The notes below the pieces were generated by a model, which ran no database searches, was not told the DNA's origin, and saw nothing but the letters and a program-made list of their open reading frames with translations. DNA of 35,059 nucleotides from Chthonomonadales bacterium (GTDB lineage: Bacteria > Armatimonadota > Chthonomonadetes > Chthonomonadales > CAJBBX01), in NCBI GenBank assembly GCA_027459625.1, contig DAIDHP010000042.1, positions 1 through 35,059 of the forward strand, written 5' to 3'. Positions 18,521 through 34,928 of this stretch are shown here, piece by piece. Positions within the stretch are counted from its first letter, which is position 1, and each line of letters starts with the position of its first letter. The position numbers were made by a program, and so were the translations under genes.

Positions 18521-20113
18521 GTGTCTGTATCTAATGTGATGAAAACAGAAAATGATTATTCAATCTATCCGGGTGTTATTCGCTGGATTATCCTTGTTGC
18601 AGTCATGCTTGGAACCATCATGCAGGTTTTGGATACTAGCATCGTAAATGTCGCCATTCCATACATGATGGGAAATCTCGGAGCCACCATTGATGAAATC
18701 AATTGGGTTTCTACGGCATATATGATCTCAAATGTAATTCTTCTTCCGCTCACCGGATGGCTGTCCATGCGTTCTGGCAGAAGAAGATATCTCGCGTATT
18801 CTATCATTCTTTTCACCACAGCCTCTTTTTGTTGCGGTATGTCCACATCTCTGAATCAGCTTATCCTGTTTCGAATTATTCAGGGAGCGGGAGGTGCAGC
18901 TCTGATCTCCACGGCGCAAGCCACTCTAATCGAGATATTCCCTCCGCAGCAACTCGGGATGGTGCAGGGTGTTTACGCCATTGGTGTTATTACGGCTCCC
19001 ACCATTGGACCGACATTGGGCGGATGGATAACGGACAACTACTCTTGGCCTTGGATATTTTTCGTTAACATTCCCATTGGGATTATCGCGGCGACGCTTA
19101 CTCTGATCTTTTTGAAGGATTCAATATATCAAACAAATAGACGCGGGAAAGTGGATTTTCTTGGAATCGTCTTTTTGGCGATTGGACTATCGTGCATGCA
19201 AGTGGTTTTGGAAAAGGGTGAGAGGGATGATTGGTTTCAATCCAATTTTATTGTGACGCTGACTGTTATTTCCGTGGTTGCTCTTGTTACCTTCATCTAC
19301 TGGGAGTTGCACATAAAGGATCCTGCGGTTAACCTGCGCATTTTAAAAAACAGAAATTTTTCCGCAGGTGTGACCTTTGCCGTTATTTATGGCTTCGCAT
19401 TATACGGAGGGATATTTGTGCTGCCGATTTTCTTACAGAATATTCGACAGTACACTGCCGAACAAACAGGTCTGATTTTCCTGCCGGGAGGATTGGCGTC
19501 CATGTTTGTGCAACCGATAGCGGCTCGTTTGGTTTCTAGAGTCTCCACGCGCCGACTAGTGGCAATAGGTGTTGGCGCGTTCGCCGGTTCCATGTATTTA
19601 ATGCATTTCCTTACTAATCTTACCGGTCCGGAGAATTTCTATTGGCCATTGGTTCTTCGTGGCGTCGCGACCGGGTTTATGTTTATCCCGCTTACCTTGG
19701 CGACATTGACCGGTTTAAAGGGCAAGGACCTCTCATATGGCACGGGACTTTACAATTTAATGCGCTACGTGGGCGGGAGCGTAGGGATCGCTTGGCTTTC
19801 AACAATGGTGGATAATCGCATCAGCTATCATCGAAGCCATTTGGTGAATTACGCTAATTATTTCAATCCGGCATTCCAACACCGAATGAGTATCCTTACT
19901 CACATTTTTATCACGAAAGGTGCGGCGCTGAATGTGGCTCGGATGCAGGCTCTTGGAATGATTGACGGCACAATACAGACACAGGCTTCGGTGCTGGCGT
20001 TCGGCGACACTCTCCTTTTCATTGCGCGGATTTTGCTGTTCTCCCTTCCTCTATTATTAATTTTCCAGCATGGTGTTCCGAAAGAGATGTCTGACGCAGT
20101 TGTGAGTGAATAA
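18521..20113 (+). CDS. DHA2-family (EmrB-type) MFS exporter, copy 1
   Basis: A 530-aa proton-driven exporter of the 14-TM DHA2 group. The N-terminal half holds MLGTIMQVLDTSIVNVAIPY, NWVSTAYMISNVILLPLTGW, FRIIQGAGGAALISTAQATL and the antiporter motif C region TIGPTLGGWITDNYSWPW, followed by FFVNIPIG. The C-terminal half has LRILKNRNFSAG and TGLIFLPGGLASM. A hydrophilic 30-residue stretch precedes the end helix. The start is GTG 18521 after AAGGAGA with a seven-base gap. Two paralogues follow in tandem. No EmrA-type membrane fusion gene is nearby, so periplasmic delivery or an unlinked partner is implied. Substrate unknown. Confidence 0.93.
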   Translation: MSVSNVMKTENDYSIYPGVIRWIILVAVMLGTIMQVLDTSIVNVAIPYMMGNLGATIDEINWVSTAYMISNVILLPLTGWLSMRSGRRRYLAYSIILFTTASFCCGMSTSLNQLILFRIIQGAGGAALISTAQATLIEIFPPQQLGMVQGVYAIGVITAPTIGPTLGGWITDNYSWPWIFFVNIPIGIIAATLTLIFLKDSIYQTNRRGKVDFLGIVFLAIGLSCMQVVLEKGERDDWFQSNFIVTLTVISVVALVTFIYWELHIKDPAVNLRILKNRNFSAGVTFAVIYGFALYGGIFVLPIFLQNIRQYTAEQTGLIFLPGGLASMFVQPIAARLVSRVSTRRLVAIGVGAFAGSMYLMHFLTNLTGPENFYWPLVLRGVATGFMFIPLTLATLTGLKGKDLSYGTGLYNLMRYVGGSVGIAWLSTMVDNRISYHRSHLVNYANYFNPAFQHRMSILTHIFITKGAALNVARMQALGMIDGTIQTQASVLAFGDTLLFIARILLFSLPLLLIFQHGVPKEMSDAVVSE

Positions 20114-20143
20114 GAAACAGGAACTGAAGAACGATTCCCCAAA

Positions 20144-20167
20144 GTATTATATAACATGTTGTTAACT
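20144..20167 (+). promoter_or_regulatory. Conserved palindromic site before exporter copy 2
   Basis: Bases 20144-20167 read GTATTATATAAC, then ATGTTGTTAACT. The core AACATGTT is a perfect palindrome within TAAC-AT-GTT-G-TTA. The same 24 bases recur before copy 3 (21806-21829) with only the two central bases changed, while the flanks differ. TATTAT/TATAAC may be a -10 box overlapped by an operator. It lies 23 bases before the GTG start. Confidence 0.55.
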
Positions 20168-20189
20168 AAATGGGTGGGGAGCCTGTTCG

Positions 20190-21778
20190 GTGTCTATATC
20201 CTCCTTTATCGGGAAGAGTAAATCATCTACGGACTACACAGGTGTCATTCGATGGTTTATTCTTGTCGCAGTCATGCTGGGCAATATACTTCAAACTCTG
20301 GACTACAGCATGGTCAATGTGGCAATACCCAATATGATGGGCAATCTCGGAGCCACAATTGACGAAATTAACTGGGTATCCACCGGTTATATGATGGCGA
20401 ACGTGATTGTGCTCCCGCTTACAGGATGGCTCTCAGCCGTATTCGGCAGGAAGCGATATCTTACATACTCCATTTTGCTTTTCATCATCGCTTCCATTTG
20501 CTCCGGCATGTCTCAGTCGTTAAATGAATTAATTATATTTCGAATCATCCAAGGTGCCGGGGGGGCTGCGTTGATTTCCACAGCTCAAGCTACGCTTGTT
20601 GAGGTTTTCCCGCTCGATCAACTAGGGGTTGCGCAAGGTTTTACGGTTTTGGGGTGGCGATGTCTCCCACTTTAGGGCCCATCCTTGGAGGATGGATCAC
20701 TGATACGTACTCGTGGAGATGGATATTCTTCGTGAATGTTCCCAGAGGCTTCCTTGCTGCTATGATGGTTTGGGTGTTCATACAGGATTCCGCATATCAA
20801 ACAAAAGGATTTGGGAGAGTGGATTTTACCGGCATCGCCCTGCTGGCAATCGGTTTTGGATGCATGCAAACCATGCTGGAGAATGGGGAGCGTGATGACT
20901 GGTTACAATCGGATTTCATTGTCACGTTAGCTGTTATATCCGCTATCTCATTGTTGATTTTCATCTATTGGGAACTCCATACGGAATCTCCAGCAGTAAA
21001 TTTGCGCATTCTGAAAAACCGAAATTTTGCGGCTGGCACCATTTTTACCGTTGTTTACGGTTTCGGTATGTATGGTGGAACGTTTATAATTCCGCTATTC
21101 CTGCAAAACATTCGACAATATACTGCTGAACAAACCGGTGCGGTTTTCATTTTGGGCGGACTGACGGCGATGGTGGGGATGCCGTTGGTTGGGAGGCTTA
21201 TCAATCACATACCTACGCGATTGTTGATTTTCATCGGGACTTGGGGATTTATCATTTATTTGGACATGCTTCATTTTCTTACAAACGTGACTAGTTCCGA
21301 GCATTTTTTCTGGTTAGTCGGCTTTCGCGGAATTTCCATGGGGTTTATATTCATCCCGCTTACTTTCATAACCTTGACCGGGTTAAAGGGTAAGGATTTG
21401 GCGAATGGATCGGGGTTGTACAATCTCATGCGACAAGTGGGAGGCAGCATAGGCATCGCATGGCTTTCTACGATGGTGGATAATCGTATCAGCTACCATC
21501 GGAGTCATCTGGTGAACTATGCAAATTCCTATAATCCAGCGTTCAGATTGAAGATGATTAGATTGATCGGGCTTTTCGAATCAAAAGGAGCCTCTTACCT
21601 TATGGCGCGAATGCAAGCGTTATCCATGGTGGATATATCCATACAAACGCAAGCTTCCGTCATGGCTTTCGGTGACACGCTGCTTTTTGTCGCACGCATC
21701 TTTTTCTTCTCTCTTCCACTATTATTACTTTTCCGACAAGGCCATCCCGGTCGAATGTCCCAGACTTCGGTTGATTGA
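20190..21778 (+). pseudogene. DHA2-family MFS exporter, copy 2, with one-base frameshift
   Basis: Paralogue of copies 1 and 3 across its whole length, but the frame breaks at GGGG (20651-20654). The first part, from GTG 20190 (after GGGGAG), reads to QLGVAQGFTVLG, then shifts into WRCLPL and a stop at 20673-20675. Adding one G restores VAMSPTLGPILGGWITDTYSW and the rest of a normal 14-TM protein ending at 21778, about 529 aa. In the sister copies the same place reads QGVYAIGVITAPTIGPTLGG and QGIYSIGVVVAPTIGPTVGG. Both halves keep clean conserved motifs and no other stops, so the change is either very recent, a homopolymer sequencing error, or a slippage-tolerant gene. If real, it leaves about 161 residues of a dead transporter. 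Confidence 0.88.
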
Positions 21779-21805
21779 AACGGGAACCGCATGGAGAAGC
21801 ATGAG

Positions 21806-21829
21806 GTATTATATAACCGGTTGTTAACT
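21806..21829 (+). promoter_or_regulatory. Conserved palindromic site before exporter copy 3
   Basis: Second copy of the 24-base sequence found at 20144. Here the central palindrome is AACCGGTT instead of AACATGTT. The paired change (AT to CG) keeps the dyad, as expected for a bound symmetric site or a base-paired element. It sits 20 bases before the TTG start of copy 3 and just upstream of its Shine-Dalgarno. Confidence 0.55.
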
Positions 21830-21849
21830 GATTCAAAAGGAGTTCATAG

Positions 21850-23445
21850 TTGCCTACTTCCTCAGCGGAGCAGACACACGAAGAATATAGCGATTATACA
21901 GGCATAATTCGTTGGGTTATCCTGATTGCGGTGATGTTGGGCACCATTTTGGAGGTGCTTGACGTGAGTATTGTAAATGTGGCTATCCCTGATATGATGG
22001 GCAATCTGGGAGCCACCATTGATGAAATCGGCTGGGTCTCCACGGGTTATATCATCTCCAACGTAATCGTCTTACCGCTCACCGGTTGGCTCTCTACCCA
22101 TTTCGGCAGAAAAAGATATCTTGCGGGCTCTATTATTCTTTTCACCTTAGCCTCATTCATGTGCGGCATTTCACACTCGCTGAATGAACTCATTTTTTTT
22201 CGAATTATCCAAGGAGCCGGCGGAGCTGCTCTCATCTCCACCGCCCAAGCCACTCTTATCGAGGTCTTTCCTCCGCAACAGCTAGGCGTTGTCCAGGGAA
22301 TATACAGTATCGGTGTGGTGGTCGCACCCACGATAGGTCCGACAGTTGGAGGGTGGATCACGGATAATTACTCCTGGCCGTGGATATTCTTTGTCAATAT
22401 CCCCATTGGCATCATGGCGGCGACGCTTGTCATTCTGTTCCTAAAGGATTCCAGATTTCAGAGGCGAGGAAGCGCCAAAGTGGATTTCCCGGGGATATTT
22501 TTCCTCGCAGTGGGGCTTGGTTGCATGCAGACGGTGCTGGAAAAGGGGGAGAGGGATGATTGGTTTCAATCCGATTTCATTGTGCGACTTACCGTCATCT
22601 CCGTAATCGCTCTGATCATCTTCATTTATTGGGAATTGAAAACCACCGATCCGGCGGTGAATTTACGTATTCTGAAAAATCGCAGCTTTATGGCGGGAAC
22701 TCTTTTCGCGAGTGTTCTGGGGTTTGGTCTTTACGGGGTTATCTTTATTCTGCCCATCTTTCTGCAGGACGTACGCAATTACACGGCGGAGCAGACTGGA
22801 TTAATGTTCCTTCCGGGAGGTCTTGCCACCATGTTTGTGGCGCCGATCATTGGCAGGTTGGTAAGCAAGATATCACCGCGAATCCTAGTCTTCATCGGAG
22901 CGGTGACTTTTGCATTCTCCATGTTTATGATCTACACTCTCTCGCCGAACACCGGTCCGGAACAAATTTTCGTCCCTCTTATCATTCGGGGTGCGGCGAT
23001 GGGATTCATCTTCATTCCTCTTACCTTGGCGGCTCTAACCGGGCTTCACGGCAAGGACCTGGCATATGGAACAGGTTTATTCAATCTGATGCGGCAATTG
23101 GGGGGTAGCATTGGGATCGCTTTCCTTTCCACCTATGTGGACAATCGGATGAATTTCCATCGTTCTTATCTCGTTCAGGATATCAACGTTTATAATCCCG
23201 CCTACCAAATACGCCTCGCGAATTTGGAGCATGCATTCCTCGCCAAAGGCGCAACGCCATATATCGCAGTGCGGCAGGCGTATGGGGTGTTGGATGGCAT
23301 CGTCCAACAGCAATCCGCCATCATGGCTTATAGTGACGCTCTTCTTATTATCGCCATCTCCTTTGTCGTAACACTTCCATTGTTACTGCTTTTCAAGAAA
23401 GGGGTTCCGGAGCATCTGCAAAGGGGAGGGGGAGGAATGCATTAA
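21850..23445 (+). CDS. DHA2-family (EmrB-type) MFS exporter, copy 3
   Basis: A 531-aa, 14-TM drug:H+ antiporter family member, closely similar to copy 1: MLGTILEVLDVSIVNVAIPD, GWVSTGYIISNVIVLPLTGW, FRIIQGAGGAALISTAQATL, APTIGPTVGGWITDNYSW, TGLMFLPGGLATM and LMRQLGGSIGIAFLSTYVDN. The start is TTG 21850, chosen because AGGAG (21838-21842) precedes it by seven bases and no ATG in frame comes before the first helix. The C-terminal tail ends in a Gly-rich GGGGMH. Three copies in a row imply repeated local duplication, with divergence perhaps towards different substrates. Confidence 0.93.
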   Translation: MPTSSAEQTHEEYSDYTGIIRWVILIAVMLGTILEVLDVSIVNVAIPDMMGNLGATIDEIGWVSTGYIISNVIVLPLTGWLSTHFGRKRYLAGSIILFTLASFMCGISHSLNELIFFRIIQGAGGAALISTAQATLIEVFPPQQLGVVQGIYSIGVVVAPTIGPTVGGWITDNYSWPWIFFVNIPIGIMAATLVILFLKDSRFQRRGSAKVDFPGIFFLAVGLGCMQTVLEKGERDDWFQSDFIVRLTVISVIALIIFIYWELKTTDPAVNLRILKNRSFMAGTLFASVLGFGLYGVIFILPIFLQDVRNYTAEQTGLMFLPGGLATMFVAPIIGRLVSKISPRILVFIGAVTFAFSMFMIYTLSPNTGPEQIFVPLIIRGAAMGFIFIPLTLAALTGLHGKDLAYGTGLFNLMRQLGGSIGIAFLSTYVDNRMNFHRSYLVQDINVYNPAYQIRLANLEHAFLAKGATPYIAVRQAYGVLDGIVQQQSAIMAYSDALLIIAISFVVTLPLLLLFKKGVPEHLQRGGGGMH

Positions 23446-26853: not shown

Positions 26854-28185
26854 TCAATAACATTGTTTGCCTAATTTACAAGGAAAAGTGTGCTTATAGT
26901 AAATAGTTTTCGTAGGGCAGTCAGGTCCACCTAATGGACTCCAGCATTCACAGTTCCTATTGTGGTATTGGAATCCAGATCCCAGTACAATAGGCTCATC
27001 GCAGGGTAAGCATGTGCTATACGAAACAAGTTTTTTGGATGTGACGCAATCATCCAGAGCCTCCGACAAAGGATTGAATTTCTTCGAGATTTGATTGGTT
27101 TGCAACGTAAGGATTCCGAACGAGAAACAAAAATTCTGAATATTATTTGTCGCTCCCATATTATAAAGATCATACCCAACCCCATATGCATATCCCTTTG
27201 CATCGCACCATTTTCCTTTGACAGCACTTAAGAAACAGTAAGGTGCAGCTAAGATATCATTAAACGAAAAATTGAGAGCCCTTCCTACTAGTCCGTACAT
27301 AATATTGCCAACCTGATGTATCGGAAGACACTTGCCGCAAAGCGTGACCGTATGATGCCCGCAATTATGGGAATATTGTGGAATTTTTGGACAAAGATAA
27401 GTTGACTTATTACCCATTCTCTTGTAACCTTGGTTCATGCCAGCCCAGCCTAAATAATTCAAAATATAGTTGTCCAAGGAACAGGCTAATAAATTCATTC
27501 CTATGGTACATAGAGGAAGCAAATCAGATGTGTTTTTAATTTTGTTGTGAAACATCCTAGCCCACTTTATTTGTGTTCCGATTTCCTTTATAATCCATTT
27601 ATCCAAATTTGGACCGCAGTACATGCAAGAACTCAGTCCGGATGGATCCATGCGCTTTATCGACTGATTCCCCACGTAATGATAAGCACCCTTGTCCGCG
27701 CTTCGATATCCGATTGGATCCCGGCTCATCCACCTCCCCTGATCAACCCGCAAGACCCTTCGTCTAACGTACAGCCTCTCCGCCTCGTCCCGCCAGTACC
27801 CCACCTGGCCGCCGAACCTCAGCGAATTGATCGTGGATCCGGAAACCGCCATCTCCTCCCCGAACGCCTCGTAGAGATAGTCATCGGTGACATTACCATT
27901 TATCGACGCGAGAATGCGCGTGTTCGCCTGCTGGTCGAAGCCGTAGAAGCTTGACGTGGCTCCCCTTCGCTCCGAGGCAAGCCCTCCCCACACGCCCGGG
28001 AAGTCGGTGTAGTGCGCGTGGGTGACGAGGCCGGAGTCGGTTTCAATAAGCACGTTCTCGCCGTCGCGAACATAATACACGGTTCCCGATGAATTGACTT
28101 TTTCCTCCCGCATCCCGTCCGCCGAGTAGGAGTAGGTCTCGACCCCGCCCGGGGAGGAGACGCCCGTCAGTCTGTTCTTGCAATC
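26854..28185 (-). CDS. Orphan Rhs core end with Cys-rich tip (Rhs1), 5'-truncated
   Basis: The frame is open from 28185, just inside a TGA at 28186-28188, and reads DCKNRLTGVSSPGGVETYSY, then from ATG 28113 MREEKVNSSGTVYYVRDG. The core part (first 160 residues from that ATG) ends in GRWMSRDPIGY and MDPSGL, the standard Rhs repeat-associated core. The remaining 259 residues are the tip: about 19 Cys, an NCGHH pair, and a central VGNIMYGLVGRALNFSF with GYAYGVGYDLYN. That pattern resembles, from memory, the polymorphic toxin type 44 family. The core is GC-rich and the tip AT-rich, the classic Rhs pattern. The YD-repeat shell, N-terminal delivery part and start site are missing, so it is probably a silent, displaced tip cassette. 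The membrane protein gene downstream is the candidate immunity partner. Confidence 0.75.
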   Translation of the reverse strand, partial: DCKNRLTGVSSPGGVETYSYSADGMREEKVNSSGTVYYVRDGENVLIETDSGLVTHAHYTDFPGVWGGLASERRGATSSFYGFDQQANTRILASINGNVTDDYLYEAFGEEMAVSGSTINSLRFGGQVGYWRDEAERLYVRRRVLRVDQGRWMSRDPIGYRSADKGAYHYVGNQSIKRMDPSGLSSCMYCGPNLDKWIIKEIGTQIKWARMFHNKIKNTSDLLPLCTIGMNLLACSLDNYILNYLGWAGMNQGYKRMGNKSTYLCPKIPQYSHNCGHHTVTLCGKCLPIHQVGNIMYGLVGRALNFSFNDILAAPYCFLSAVKGKWCDAKGYAYGVGYDLYNMGATNNIQNFCFSFGILTLQTNQISKKFNPLSEALDDCVTSKKLVSYSTCLPCDEPIVLGSGFQYHNRNCECWSPLGGPDCPTKTIYYKHTFPCKLGKQCY

Positions 28186-28308: not shown

Positions 28309-28926
28309 TTACCATCCTAGTTTATTCCATGCCTCGCAGCGAACGAACTTAACATGTCCATCAAGGAAAGCGAAATTCAGATCGCCTGGATGTCGTTTTT
28401 CAGGAGTTATAATATCCTTGTTGCCATACGCATCGGGACCGGTGGCGTCACATTCGAACAGCATAACGATATCTTGCCAGTTATCTCTCTTGTAAAGCAA
28501 CCCCTTCCCCAAGGAGATATTCAAGGCGTACGTATATGGCGATGAGGATGCAGGACAACGTATGACGCCAATTTTCTTTTCGGAACCAAGAAAAGCTCGC
28601 CCTTCCGTATACCATTGATTGGCGGGTGGAAAAGTATCATCCCAGTCATCTGCGTAGTCAAGAAGCGCACGACTCAAAATCCTCATGTTCTCATTGCATG
28701 TCACATTCTGGCGAACGACGAATGCGGAGAGGAAAGGTGCGTAAAATACGCTGCAAAGTCCCACGAAAGCAATAAGGAACAGAAATATTTTCACCCATTT
28801 GACGACCTTACGAAATATGGAAGATCCAATTCGTTTGTATGTCACTTGTAATAGCACAGCGGGAACAAACAACGTAATCAACCATATCATATCTCTATCA
28901 ATTCGTAAGGCTATCAAATAATTCAT
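28309..28926 (-). CDS. H-X9-DG / DUF1559-like prepilin-type membrane protein
   Basis: A 205-aa protein with two N-terminal hydrophobic segments (IWLITLFVPAVLLQV and FLFLIAFVGLCSVFYAPF), then an extracytoplasmic domain. The domain has NMRILSRALLDYADDWDDTFPPANQW and ends RHPGDLNFAFLDGHVKFV, an exact H-x9-DG motif. Such domains are abundant in Armatimonadota, Planctomycetes and relatives, usually on type II pseudopilins that begin with a prepilin cleavage site. Here the usual FTLIELLVV signal is absent and two TM segments replace it. ATG 28926 follows GGGAGGGA with an eight-base gap, a strong start. It lies just upstream of the truncated Rhs1 and may have come in with an insertion that cut it off. 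Confidence 0.8.
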   Translation of the reverse strand: MNYLIALRIDRDMIWLITLFVPAVLLQVTYKRIGSSIFRKVVKWVKIFLFLIAFVGLCSVFYAPFLSAFVVRQNVTCNENMRILSRALLDYADDWDDTFPPANQWYTEGRAFLGSEKKIGVIRCPASSSPYTYALNISLGKGLLYKRDNWQDIVMLFECDATGPDAYGNKDIITPEKRHPGDLNFAFLDGHVKFVRCEAWNKLGW

Positions 28927-29591: not shown

Positions 29592-30700
29592 CTACATACT
29601 TGGATATTGCCAAACAGGGAAATATGGCGGTGGCGGATATTTGAAATAGCCATGACGTTGGCAACTAAGAAATGCGTTATCACGCCACTTCTTTAATAGT
29701 GCCTTTCCCGGCCCCGTAATGGAGCAACAAACGTTAATACCACATTGTATGCAACATAAACTTATTTGGAGAAATCCTGTCCCTCCTCCTGAAGTATAAC
29801 ATTGTTTATAGTATGGATTATATGTAGCACACTCACCGAGATGATAGTTCACAATTGTACATAGAGATATTTGTTCAATTATATTTCTTGAATCATCACA
29901 TAACTCCGAATCAAGATTGTCATAATAATCCTCCCAAAAAGTATAGATTGCACACACATTCTTATAGCAACTATATTTTGGATATTGGGGGCTTACCCCT
30001 TTCATTGTGGATGGACTATTACTACCACAAGATATTTGTAACTTATCATAGTGGGATATACCACCATTCTTCTGCAAGCCGAGTGGATCAATATAGAACG
30101 TTGGACGATTTTCAACATATTGATATGGATGAATCGCTTGATTGATCTGGTCCCCGCTCATCCACCTCCCCAAATCCGTCCTCAAATGCCTCGCCCTCAC
30201 GTACAGCCTCTCCGCCACGTCCCTCCAGTACCCGACCTGACCGCCGAACCGCAGCGGGTTCACCGTATTTCCTGAAACAGCAAGCTCCTCCCCGAACGCC
30301 TTGTAGAGATAGTCGTCCGTGACCGCCCCGGCGGGGGAGACCAGAATGCGCGTGTTGGCTTGCTGGTCGAACCCGTAAAAGCTGGAAACTCCGCCCCTTC
30401 TCTCGGATGCCAGCCCGCCCCACATCCCCGGGAAGTCGGTGTAGTGAGCCTGGGATATCAAATTCGCATCCGTTTCTATCAGCACGTTGTCGCCGTCCCT
30501 CACGTAATAAACGGTTCCGGAGGAGTTGACCTTTTCCTCTCTCATCCCGTCGGCCGAGTAGGAGAATGTCTCCATTCAGGACGGGGAGGTGACGCCAACA
30601 AGCCGGTTTTCGTAGTCCCATGAATATGTGGTCAGCGCGCCTCCTGCGTTCTCGGTCAGAATGTTGCCGTTCGCGTCGTAGGTCGATGTGGTCGGCACCG
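29592..30700 (-). pseudogene. Orphan Rhs core end with short Cys-rich tip (Rhs2), in-frame stop
   Basis: Translated from ATG 30575 it gives 327 aa: METFSYSADGMREEKVNSSG, a core nearly identical to Rhs1 (YYVRDGDNVLIETD, GFDQQANTRIL, LRFGGQVGYWRD), an altered junction GRWMSGDQINQ and DPLGL at about residues 163-167. A 160-residue tip follows with 13 Cys and no recognised family. Upstream of the ATG the Rhs frame continues (TYDANGNILTEN, TTYSWDYENRLVGVTSPS), but a TGA at 30576-30578 interrupts it where Rhs1 has a Gly codon. Homology fades near 30700, so the bulk of the Rhs gene is gone. The near-identical core with an unrelated tip is the signature of tip exchange. The ATG just after the stop has no good Shine-Dalgarno, so expression is doubtful. 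Confidence 0.75.
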
Positions 30701-31961: not shown

Positions 31962-32678
31962 TTACCTCCAATGCTTGAACGTCAATGGCTCCAGACGTTT
32001 GACGTAGGGGCAGTGACGAACCAGCACGTATCGAAACCGCGCCTGTGACCACTTCCACACTTTGGCGGTCATTTCACTCAGTCCGATCTTGGCATTCGTC
32101 ATAGGGGGATACCAATTAAGTGTAATTATCTCCTCGTCGGAATAGGCCGGGTAGGCGTCCTTGTCCAAATCCACGAATTCCGGCATATACTGAAAACCGG
32201 TTCGCATGCTTCCTGCGTCAAACACGATCGAAAATTTGCCGCTGTATTGCCTCCCTATAATCACCCACTCAGTATTCGGTTGTGCTTCTCCGGAAGCTGT
32301 AATAAGCATGGCTCCCAATCGGGGGAGTTTTCCGTCAGCTGTGCTCTCGGCGGGTTCAATCCAAGGCATTATCCCGTTGACCCAAGTTTCAGGTCTGTTG
32401 AAACGATATAGAATTCGACCGGAAGTCCAACTCCTAAATTCCACGATATCTCCTTTCACAGGATTAGTTGAATACCATTCCACGTAGAATTCGGAATGTT
32501 CACCATTAGGGGGAAACCATTCAAAATAATGGTATTTCAAGGATGATATAGCAAATTTAGAGGGACCATGATGGAGGCCCTTATCGGGTGATTTGTGTCC
32601 ATGCGGGGCGCCAAGCGACAGCAGTGTCAATGCGCTGAAAACGATAACGAGGGACGCAACAGCATTCTTGATGAACAT
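31962..32678 (-). CDS. Secreted protein of unknown function, candidate immunity or companion of the HELGH-Rhs protein
   Basis: A 238-aa product with a signal peptide (KNAVASLVIVFSALTLLSLGA, cleavage near 23), hence periplasmic or extracellular. The mature part begins His-rich (HGHKSPDKGLHHG). It carries two copies of a Trp/Tyr-rich strand pattern (FEWFPPNGEHSEFYVEWY and ITLNWYPPMTNAK). Its C-terminal half has EFVDLDKDAYPAYSDEEII and KVWKWSQARFRYV, reminiscent of VCBS/FG-GAP-like 'DLDGDG' repeats. No named family. GGGAGG precedes ATG 32678. It starts 19 bases after the stop of the metallopeptidase-Rhs gene, so the two are translated as a pair. An exported immunity protein would suit a toxin acting outside the cytoplasm, but that is inference. 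Confidence 0.65.
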   Translation of the reverse strand: MFIKNAVASLVIVFSALTLLSLGAPHGHKSPDKGLHHGPSKFAISSLKYHYFEWFPPNGEHSEFYVEWYSTNPVKGDIVEFRSWTSGRILYRFNRPETWVNGIMPWIEPAESTADGKLPRLGAMLITASGEAQPNTEWVIIGRQYSGKFSIVFDAGSMRTGFQYMPEFVDLDKDAYPAYSDEEIITLNWYPPMTNAKIGLSEMTAKVWKWSQARFRYVLVRHCPYVKRLEPLTFKHWR

Positions 32679-32697: not shown

Positions 32698-34569
32698 TCA
32701 TTTAGCGTATCGCAGGCAATGATCGCATGTCTGTTCGTCTTTGTGCTTTTTCCAATCCGTGCTCAAACATTTTTCGCATTTCCTCATCTTTGAAATATCA
32801 TACTCTGGCGATCCATAGCGTTTCAATCCTATACATTGTAATCCGATATAGGCAGCCTTCGCCCCTTGGCACCAATCCTTGCCCTGAACCCCTTTTTGCT
32901 TATCACCTTTACAGCAAGCACCGCGATTGCATCCGCAATTGATCAACGTCTTTAGGAGTCCGGGTTGTCCACTCGGTAGGGTGCACATAAGTTGCCCTAT
33001 TCCTCCATGGTTATCTCCCCCGCAGCCTTGATCCATCATATCGCACTCAATATGAAAGACGCAAAGCATCATCTCTTTACTAACCTGATGTTGATTAGGA
33101 GCCGCCTTGCACCCACACCCATGCCCTTTGCAATTATACTTTCCCGTATTTTCCAGGCATGAATAAACATCCTTGCAACTATGTTTATGACTCGGGGGGG
33201 AAGGTTTTTTGTGAACGCGTGAGATCGGTGCTCTTCCTGACGGGCTAGCATATTTAACCGGATTGTCATACGCATACCTGTATGGCGATTCGGTGCCGGT
33301 TTGTTCCGCCAGGCGCTCCCTGCTCAGCCACAGTCCGATCCCGGGCATGTAGCTTCTTCCAAAGTGACGCTGTCGGTGTGAGCCGATCCGTCGGGGAATG
33401 GACGGTTGATCAAGCCTCATGACGGAGCGCCGTAATGCCGTGGGCTCCGTCCAACGATAGGAGGCGTCGAGAAACTGTATCTGTGCACTTCCGTTGGGAG
33501 CGCCGAATATTCGCCATCGCACATTCGCGCCGATATCGTGCTTCGCCATTGCCTTTCCAATCTCCAGCTTCTCTCGTACGGAACAGCCTGGAAAGAACTT
33601 GGGAAATTTATCCTGATAACATTCGGTCGGGATAACTTCCTCCAAATCCCTCGTTATATCGAATGAATCGCCGATTGCGCGGAATGATAAGATTGCGCAC
33701 TCATTTATGACTTCCTTTATCGAACCGCCGTCGTCAACCCCGTGTTGACTAACACTGTTTACGAATTCTTCGGCCAAGAGGCATATTTCAGGTATGCCTT
33801 GCTTCAACGTGGCAATAGCGACATTAAAATCCCGTAATGATGTTTCTGAAAGCCGATTTTGATCCAGAATCGCGGCGGCTATGATTGGAGCCAAACACGC
33901 CGCCTCTCGCTTTGAAGGGGGCTGATAACCGGCGTTTACCGCTTGAGCCATGGAATGGATCGTCTCAAATTGCTGGTCGTCGATGATCGTCATATCGAAT
34001 CCGCGCCCCGCAATAACATCGTTGACCTTCCGATCTAAAACAAACGATTGAATATACTGGAACTGGCGAACTCTGCTCGTATCGGACAGGTCGCGCATCA
34101 TACGGTAGTCTTCGCAATTTTCAATCAGATCAATCCACACATGCCCCAGTTCGTGTGCAAAGATGGTTTCATGAAGATGAACTGCGTCAAAGAAAAACAA
34201 TATCCTATTGGGGTCGGACCAGGCGTCCACGCTATGCCCGTCCGGATGGGATTGGTTAGGATGGAGATGCGGCATCGTATCGAGAGGGATAAGATGTTTG
34301 CTGGTGCTACGATCAACCTGGATGAAAAAGTCATTCAGTCGCGGTGACATATTTTGGGGAATAATAACCGGAAGAAGATCACGTGGGTCGTGGGAAATGA
34401 CATTTCCATAATCACGAGCCATGGATGAAAGAGTGGGTGCAAAAAAGTGACCGTATACGATCCATTCCATACCGTACTTGTTAATCATTTTTGACCCGAT
34501 CGATGGTAGTTTATTCTCCAAAGCGATTGTATTATATTTCTCTCGGATTGCGGATAGTTCTTTACACAT
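32698..34569 (-). CDS. HELGH metallopeptidase-like domain fused to an Rhs core end and a Cys-rich tail
   Basis: A 623-aa protein in three parts. Residues 1 to about 330 form an alpha-rich domain with HETIFAHELGHVWIDLIENC; H139-E140-x-x-H143 is a zincin motif, and Glu or Asp at 153-154 could be the third ligand. Residues about 340-395 form a linker with WRIFGAPNG. Residues about 400-445 are an Rhs core end: FGRSYMPGIGLWLSRERLAE, YRYAYDNPVKYASPSGR. Residues 460-623 are a tail with 19 Cys, closing with a CxxC-x13-CxxC zinc-ribbon-like pair (598/601 and 615/618). No signal peptide is evident. Start ATG 34569, GGGAGG upstream. Its core end differs from Rhs1 and Rhs2. The peptidase could be a processing domain or a second effector. 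The secreted protein gene lies 19 bases downstream. No known family with this whole architecture comes to mind. Confidence 0.7.
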   Translation of the reverse strand: MCKELSAIREKYNTIALENKLPSIGSKMINKYGMEWIVYGHFFAPTLSSMARDYGNVISHDPRDLLPVIIPQNMSPRLNDFFIQVDRSTSKHLIPLDTMPHLHPNQSHPDGHSVDAWSDPNRILFFFDAVHLHETIFAHELGHVWIDLIENCEDYRMMRDLSDTSRVRQFQYIQSFVLDRKVNDVIAGRGFDMTIIDDQQFETIHSMAQAVNAGYQPPSKREAACLAPIIAAAILDQNRLSETSLRDFNVAIATLKQGIPEICLLAEEFVNSVSQHGVDDGGSIKEVINECAILSFRAIGDSFDITRDLEEVIPTECYQDKFPKFFPGCSVREKLEIGKAMAKHDIGANVRWRIFGAPNGSAQIQFLDASYRWTEPTALRRSVMRLDQPSIPRRIGSHRQRHFGRSYMPGIGLWLSRERLAEQTGTESPYRYAYDNPVKYASPSGRAPISRVHKKPSPPSHKHSCKDVYSCLENTGKYNCKGHGCGCKAAPNQHQVSKEMMLCVFHIECDMMDQGCGGDNHGGIGQLMCTLPSGQPGLLKTLINCGCNRGACCKGDKQKGVQGKDWCQGAKAAYIGLQCIGLKRYGSPEYDISKMRKCEKCLSTDWKKHKDEQTCDHCLRYAK

Positions 34570-34928
34570 CCCTTTGATCCTCCCTTACAATGATTTCCAT
34601 TTACATAGACAGTTTCAGTACGGTTATTGCTCGTGATAGAGCTAATCGCTGCTGATTTTCGACATGCGAAGGAATATCCTTTCAGTTAGTTATTATGTAA
34701 CATTGTGCATCATGTCTCTCCGTATAAATTGTTGCGTATGAACACCAATCTGAAATCCAATACAATCGTGAGGATCCAATTATTCGGATGAATTGTTGGC
34801 TTTGATATTTCGTATCGCTGGTAAAAGCTTATCCATCCAATCCTCGGTTTACAAATCAAAGAGGGAATATACGCCTTGTGTAAGAAGATGTGCCTCGTTA
34901 AGGCGGATGCAATGGGTTTCAGAATCCG
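34570..34928. other. Intergenic region upstream of the HELGH-Rhs gene
   Basis: No gene supported. It should contain the minus-strand promoter for the HELGH-Rhs/secreted-protein pair; several AT-rich candidates exist (for example around 34685-34740), but none has a clear -35/-10 pair. Confidence 0.35.

Follow-up and report, generated by a model that had tools for sequence, protein, structure and literature searches.

The stretch of DNA analysed here (the window, 35,059 nucleotides) is contig C42 of a 4.5-Mb genome that is 96.6% complete. About 0.5 kb from the contig end it carries a gene for a protein of 623 residues, whose features are listed in Table 1. The preliminary description had placed a zincin motif, the end of an Rhs core and a tail with 19 cysteines in one open reading frame, and this was confirmed, the frame lying on the minus strand. 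The frame begins with an ATG, which has an in-frame stop close upstream as read from the sequence and is preceded by a strong Shine-Dalgarno-like AAGGGAGG. Neither Pfam nor PHROGs matched the 623-residue protein, and no Sec-type signal peptide was seen in its sequence.

Two ordinary Rhs core-end frames of the window share 77% DNA identity over 447 bp around the core. The place between these two orphan cassettes, at which one would look for an immunity gene, is taken by a DUF1559 / H-X9-DG-CTERM pilin-like gene (28309-28926, minus strand). Elsewhere in the window, at 18521-23445 on the plus strand, there are three tandem MFS-transporter-like frames with DNA identity of 66-69%, the middle one being split in two.

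Table 1. Positions of the zincin-Rhs gene, its parts and the related genes in the window
Feature	Position	Strand	Basis
Complete gene (623 aa) with zincin-like head, linker, stub of an Rhs core and Cys-rich tail	32698..34569	-	ORF and translation; full-length copy in the same genus
Shine-Dalgarno-like AAGGGAGGA 5' of the ATG	34578..34586	-	read from the sequence
Conserved N-terminal zincin-like domain, residues 1-380	33430..34569	-	28/291 genomes; AlphaFold; alignment of 25 sequences
HELGH, residues 139-143, in predicted helix 134-148	34141..34155	-	invariant H139/E140/H143; model
D179, candidate third metal ligand, in predicted helix 164-188	34033..34035	-	invariant 25/25; putative ligand role
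Variable linker, residues 381-404	33358..33429	-	low-confidence model; 48% identity to sister vs 95% for the N-domain
Rhs core stub, residues 405-445, ending SPSG, not DPSG	33235..33357	-	TIGR03696 positions 36-75; comparison of core ends
Exchangeable C-terminal tail, residues 446-623, 19 Cys	32701..33234	-	convincing homologue in the same genus only; other tails unrelated
Two CxxC pairs, tail residues 598-601 and 615-618	32716..32778	-	sequence
Candidate immunity gene, 238 aa, signal-peptide-like N-terminus	31962..32678	-	20 nt after the toxin stop; putative immunity role
Orphan cassette: ORF with an ordinary Rhs core end and a Cys-rich tail of its own	29592..30575	-	TIGR03696 E 2.8e-13
Second orphan cassette: ORF with an ordinary Rhs core end and a different tail	26854..28113	-	TIGR03696 E 8.5e-12

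Relatives and distribution

The N-terminal domain is present in 28 of 291 Armatimonadota genomes. One of the same genus has the full-length protein at 90% identity, and an assembly join is thereby ruled out. A search for homologues with the same three-part order had been proposed in the preliminary description, which also considered that the two halves might prove to be separate genes; the order is kept in all 25 full-length relatives that were aligned, each with a TIGR03696 match in the same frame. The tails of the full-length relatives are mostly 140-220 residues long. Among the matches listed in a contig-wide search, the domain occurs in Armatimonadota only (one record is named otherwise), the named relatives being Fimbriimonadaceae, Chthonomonadaceae and Chthonomonas records; as found here, the zincin-headed family is thus restricted to this phylum among the matches listed. 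No relatives of the domain were found in viral contigs, phages or plasmids, and there was no PHROG match.

A contig of 424 kb whose title is 'Methanoregulaceae archaeon isolate SJ84' (L095, JADZEW010000001.1) also carries a family member and coincides with a genome, G149, that is Armatimonadota by taxonomy; the Methanoregulaceae name of this record is probably wrong. Four members (L010, L018, L022 and L012, of families f3 and f17) have an extra helical segment N-terminal to the zincin head, with a motif resembling LHxAQxxLAREYGFxSWxxL. Two members are broken, one (L018/L092) by a frame break in L092 in the region of the head/core junction, the other (L080/L053) by an in-frame TAG in the head region.

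The N-terminal domain

An HExxH motif by itself is weak evidence, because about 0.05 occurrences are expected by chance in a protein of such composition, and it is conservation that counts. Across the 25 aligned N-domains, which are 32-94% identical to the window protein, residues H139, E140, H143, W145, D163, S175 and D179 never vary, and E153 is likewise invariant. The AlphaFold model of the domain alone (mean pLDDT 87.8, pTM 0.87) places HELGH in a high-confidence helix (134-148) that is preceded by strands and followed by D179 in a conserved helix (164-188); the lack of an active-site helix around residues 139-143, which the preliminary description named as an outcome that would count against a zincin, was thus not encountered. 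D179 may supply the third metal ligand. A large additional helical half spans residues 194-300 of the model. The head is under strong purifying selection in two other pairs of relatives (dN/dS 0.08) and moderate purifying selection in the window pair (0.33).

Foldseek gave no significant match for the model of this domain. In VIA-align, which bears only on the fold families that it listed, all rows were weak (Z < 6), and the top ones were short helical-bundle matches. Eight rows have long alignments that start at residues 3-29, and seven of them are zincins, at weak Z values of 3.7-4.4: ArdC (Z 4.4 over 131 residues), a cold aminopeptidase (4.0 over 181), M61 (4.0 over 194), aureolysin (3.9 over 157 and 3.8 over 164), LTA4 hydrolase (3.8 over 167) and DPP III (3.7 over 210). 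The eighth is 3o0y, titled putative lipoprotein. Together with the confident helix, these fold matches give moderate support to the view that the head is a zincin of an undescribed family, and we consider it probable that it is an active one. Assignment to Peptidase_M91 was rejected, the single match among 22 N-domains (E 0.0097) being at about the chance level for 22 scans.

A reduced Rhs core

The NCBIfam profile TIGR03696 (Rhs_assc_core) aligns with residues 405-445 at its positions 36-75 of 76 (E 6e-5), a match that for the window protein alone falls short of the curated cut-off; in all 25 full-length relatives it is again only the C-terminal half of the profile that matches. The stub starts at about the strand GRFLS/T, and the upstream YVRARYYDP half is missing from the family. 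There are no YD repeats: no Pfam repeat matched, and residues 1-380 are confidently predicted to form a domain of another kind.

In Rhs1 of Photorhabdus laumondii a pair of DPLGL motifs, spaced by 17 residues, precedes the site of C-terminal cleavage; autocleavage depends on the Asp of the second motif (PMC8636562). The first DPxG motif is lost in all 23 zincin-headed members read (e.g. LTEARLAERL, LSRERLAEQ). Of the 23, 20 still have the Asp in the second motif; in the window protein and in its sister this motif has become SPSG, in L094 NPDG. It is SDRSG in L083, one of the two members which the pattern left unread. With its first motif lost and Ser in place of the second motif's catalytic Asp, the window protein probably lacks aspartyl autocleavage, which may survive in part in the relatives that keep the second Asp. 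RDPIG or a similar motif is retained by several core ends of ordinary Rhs proteins in the phylum, one of which lies in the window; those of G022 have lost it too. The stub suggests that the family either descended from ordinary Rhs proteins or captured tails from them, and the fact that the stub has been kept without a functioning autoprotease points to a role as a recombination seam.

Exchange of tails

Of the 26 cysteines of the protein, 19 lie in its 178-residue tail. The tail is modelled at a pLDDT under 50, and Foldseek returned no usable match for the tail-containing model any more than for the N-domain. A guess that the tail is lysozyme-like, made from HIECDMMDQGC..GGIGQL, found no support in PDB sequence or Pfam searches.

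The head is constant and the tail exchangeable, the switch falling where the core ends. L072 and L073, which come from a single genome, are 93% identical in the N-domain and 91% in the core, and 17% in the tail; for L079 and L085 the corresponding values are 90%, 97% and 21%. The converse is seen in L079 and L096, whose N-domains are 36% and PLA2-like tails 50% identical, and whose downstream genes are related. In L076 and L083 the gene is followed downstream by a displaced cassette, in which linker and core carry another tail; DNA homology between cassette and parent (83-85%) stops at the core motif. L070 has a short core remnant. Moreover, the tail of two zincin-headed proteins is found on an ordinary Rhs core protein of G022 as well (E 4e-27 and 3e-7); in this comparison of tails with ordinary Rhs proteins the L032 match was used, and L036 (a split gene) and L040 (a contig-end fragment) were left out.

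Pfam recognised Ntox16 in one tail (1.6e-10), PLA2 in one (3e-4) and NAGPA in two (best 6e-7). The Cys-rich tails of L009, L018/L025 and L014 end in LHEMIGNCG or LHEMISVCG, similarly to LHELLHSCG of an ordinary Rhs protein of G036; this is perhaps a zincin-type tail whose second His has been lost in the zincin-headed proteins.

Downstream genes and export

The 238-codon gene adjoins the same tail in the sister genome too, and its product is envelope-like by hydropathy. Envelope-like adjacent downstream frames were found at 18 of 21 loci, versus 81 of 149 (54%) other frames (P 0.005), where envelope-like denotes a hydrophobic N-terminus, a membrane helix or a lipobox by a crude hydropathy rule and the loci are not all independent. 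Downstream genes were related in three of eight tail pairs (P 0.002 by a count of pairs that takes no account of relatedness). Among the remaining neighbours none is conserved widely across the loci, so that no dedicated exporter is visible.

The source genome has neither a sheath (PF04984) nor gp25, and no contractile injection system is detectable in it. Among the 28 carriers a sheath gene is present in six and gp25 in four; strong eCIS_core matches occur in those carriers which have both, on other proteins. Delivery by a PVC/eCIS apparatus is unsupported, the source genome having no sheath and no gp25.

Discussion

The analysis shows a conserved three-part order, an invariant HExxH in a predicted helix, a switch of tails where the core ends, displaced cassettes and partly matching downstream genes. 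The protein looks like an interbacterial weapon which swaps its tails in the manner of Rhs proteins without their usual cage. It is very likely that we are dealing with a polymorphic toxin system. Our leading explanation, which we hold with slight preference over its negation, is a polymorphic toxin with a tail-releasing zincin head, an exchangeable tail and a downstream immunity gene; we infer for it proteolysis, tail release, toxicity, immunity and export. The head would cut in the region of the linker and core and free the tail, taking the place of the Rhs aspartyl autoprotease, and the core stub would be kept chiefly as a homologous seam at which tails could recombine with one another and with those of the cell's ordinary Rhs proteins. 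The tails would then act in the envelope of competing bacteria, and the downstream immunity product would be exported to the cell envelope. A more extended proposal, in which an undescribed-family zincin has replaced both the Rhs cage and the aspartyl autoprotease, the core of about 40 residues links the protein to the Rhs tail pool, and export is non-contractile, is a tentative one, to which we give somewhat less than an even chance.

That the head frees the tail by cutting has, in our estimation, an even chance or slightly better. Such release had been raised in the preliminary description, and it is the best-supported reading, with a conserved order of parts, though supported in part only. 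Against the leading explanation as a whole it counts that the zincin fold matches are weak (Z 3.7-4.4, none significant in Foldseek), that tail and neighbour agree in only three of eight tail pairs, and that most relatives keep the second Asp, so that some aspartyl cleavage may occur there. A polymorphic toxin whose head is not a releasing peptidase deserves attention, although we consider it rather unlikely. The head could be a trafficking or docking domain, or its substrate could belong to the exporter or to the target cell, the tail being left uncut or cut in another way. The variable linker with no visibly conserved cleavage site would fit this, as would the helical half of the head (194-300), which could dock to an exporter, and the second core Asp of 20 of 23 members, with which the old autocleavage might persist. 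On the other hand, the catalytic-type triad is invariant in all 25 N-domains despite identity down to 32%, and the aspartyl route of the window protein is without its catalytic residue.

The preliminary description also considered that the peptidase may be the effector itself, the Cys-rich tail then being a targeting or binding part. Zincin toxins are indeed known in polymorphic systems (Tox-MPTase, HopH1/NleD types; PMC3482391), and one N-domain matched Peptidase_M91 marginally. We regard this as very improbable: it is the head that stays constant while tails are exchanged, the Ntox16, PLA2 and NAGPA tails are enzyme-like, and in L079 and L096 the candidate immunity genes go with the tail, not the head. 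About as improbable, and if anything slightly more so, is a protein without toxic function that Armatimonadota secrete or carry on their surface for housekeeping and whose C-terminus evolves fast; many tails are without known activity and most carriers without an identified injector, but a system of toxin and immunity accounts better for tails replaced abruptly at a single motif, for the orphan cassettes, for the tails of Ntox16 and PLA2 type and for the envelope-type genes beside them. An artefact of assembly or recombination fusing two separate genes, which the nearby contig end might suggest, has negligible probability in view of the full-length copy in the sister genome and the same order in 25 of 25 full-length relatives.

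If the leading explanation, a toxin with a tail-releasing head, is true, the Rhs core end would be an interchangeable adapter joining unrelated heads and tails, and its role in tail exchange would be separable from cage building and autocleavage. The zincin-Rhs head could then also be a marker for finding toxins of Armatimonadota. The hypothesis of a releasing peptidase is testable by one active-site mutant.

Comparison with known systems

Rhs toxins, such as Rhs1 of the type VI secretion system of P. laumondii (PMC8636562), resemble the zincin-Rhs protein in a DPxG-type core end bordering a polymorphic tail, in orphan cassettes and in an immunity-like gene downstream. Unlike them, the zincin-Rhs protein has no YD repeats or cage and no PAAR domain; its core is reduced to the last 40 residues or so, the first DPxG is lost, and the window protein has no catalytic Asp. 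Gluzincin-type metallopeptidases (M4 aureolysin, M1, M61, M49) and ArdC share with the head an HExxH helix followed by a second helix, but their structural alignments with it, long as they are, are weak (Z 3.7-4.4), and no sequence similarity was detected. The TANFOR-domain toxins of Bacteroidetes (PMC7073777) appear to be likewise a phylum-specific class defined by its own N-terminal domain, although that domain and the phylum are different and the abstract mentions no Rhs core stub.

The open-access papers searched yielded no account of this N-domain or of its fusion to an Rhs core reduced to a stub, nor any work on Rhs toxins or contractile injection systems of Armatimonadota. The claim of the preliminary description that no family with this order has been described holds as far as this domain and its fusion to the stub are concerned; it does not hold for the general plan, a metallopeptidase followed by variable toxin tails, which is that of PVC/eCIS proteins (PMC3482391). 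In the PVC-metallopeptidase plan a constant N-terminal metallopeptidase was proposed to release diverse toxins (Zhang et al. 2012, PMC3482391). These proteins (eCIS_core, PF13699, DUF4157) are similar to ours in the constant N-terminal HExxH domain and the highly variable C-terminal toxin domains (PMC3482391). Their signature is HExxHxxQ-E (PMC3482391), whereas the zincin-Rhs head has HExxHxW with invariant D163 and D179 and no conserved Gln three positions after the second His, and PF13699 matched none of 22 N-domains up to an E value of 1. Most zincin-Rhs carriers, moreover, are without contractile system genes, and, unlike in PVC/eCIS, an Rhs core stub stands between head and tail and immunity-like neighbours are common. 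Since both signature and genome context differ, the zincin-Rhs head is an analogue of the PVC/eCIS metallopeptidases, not a member of their family.
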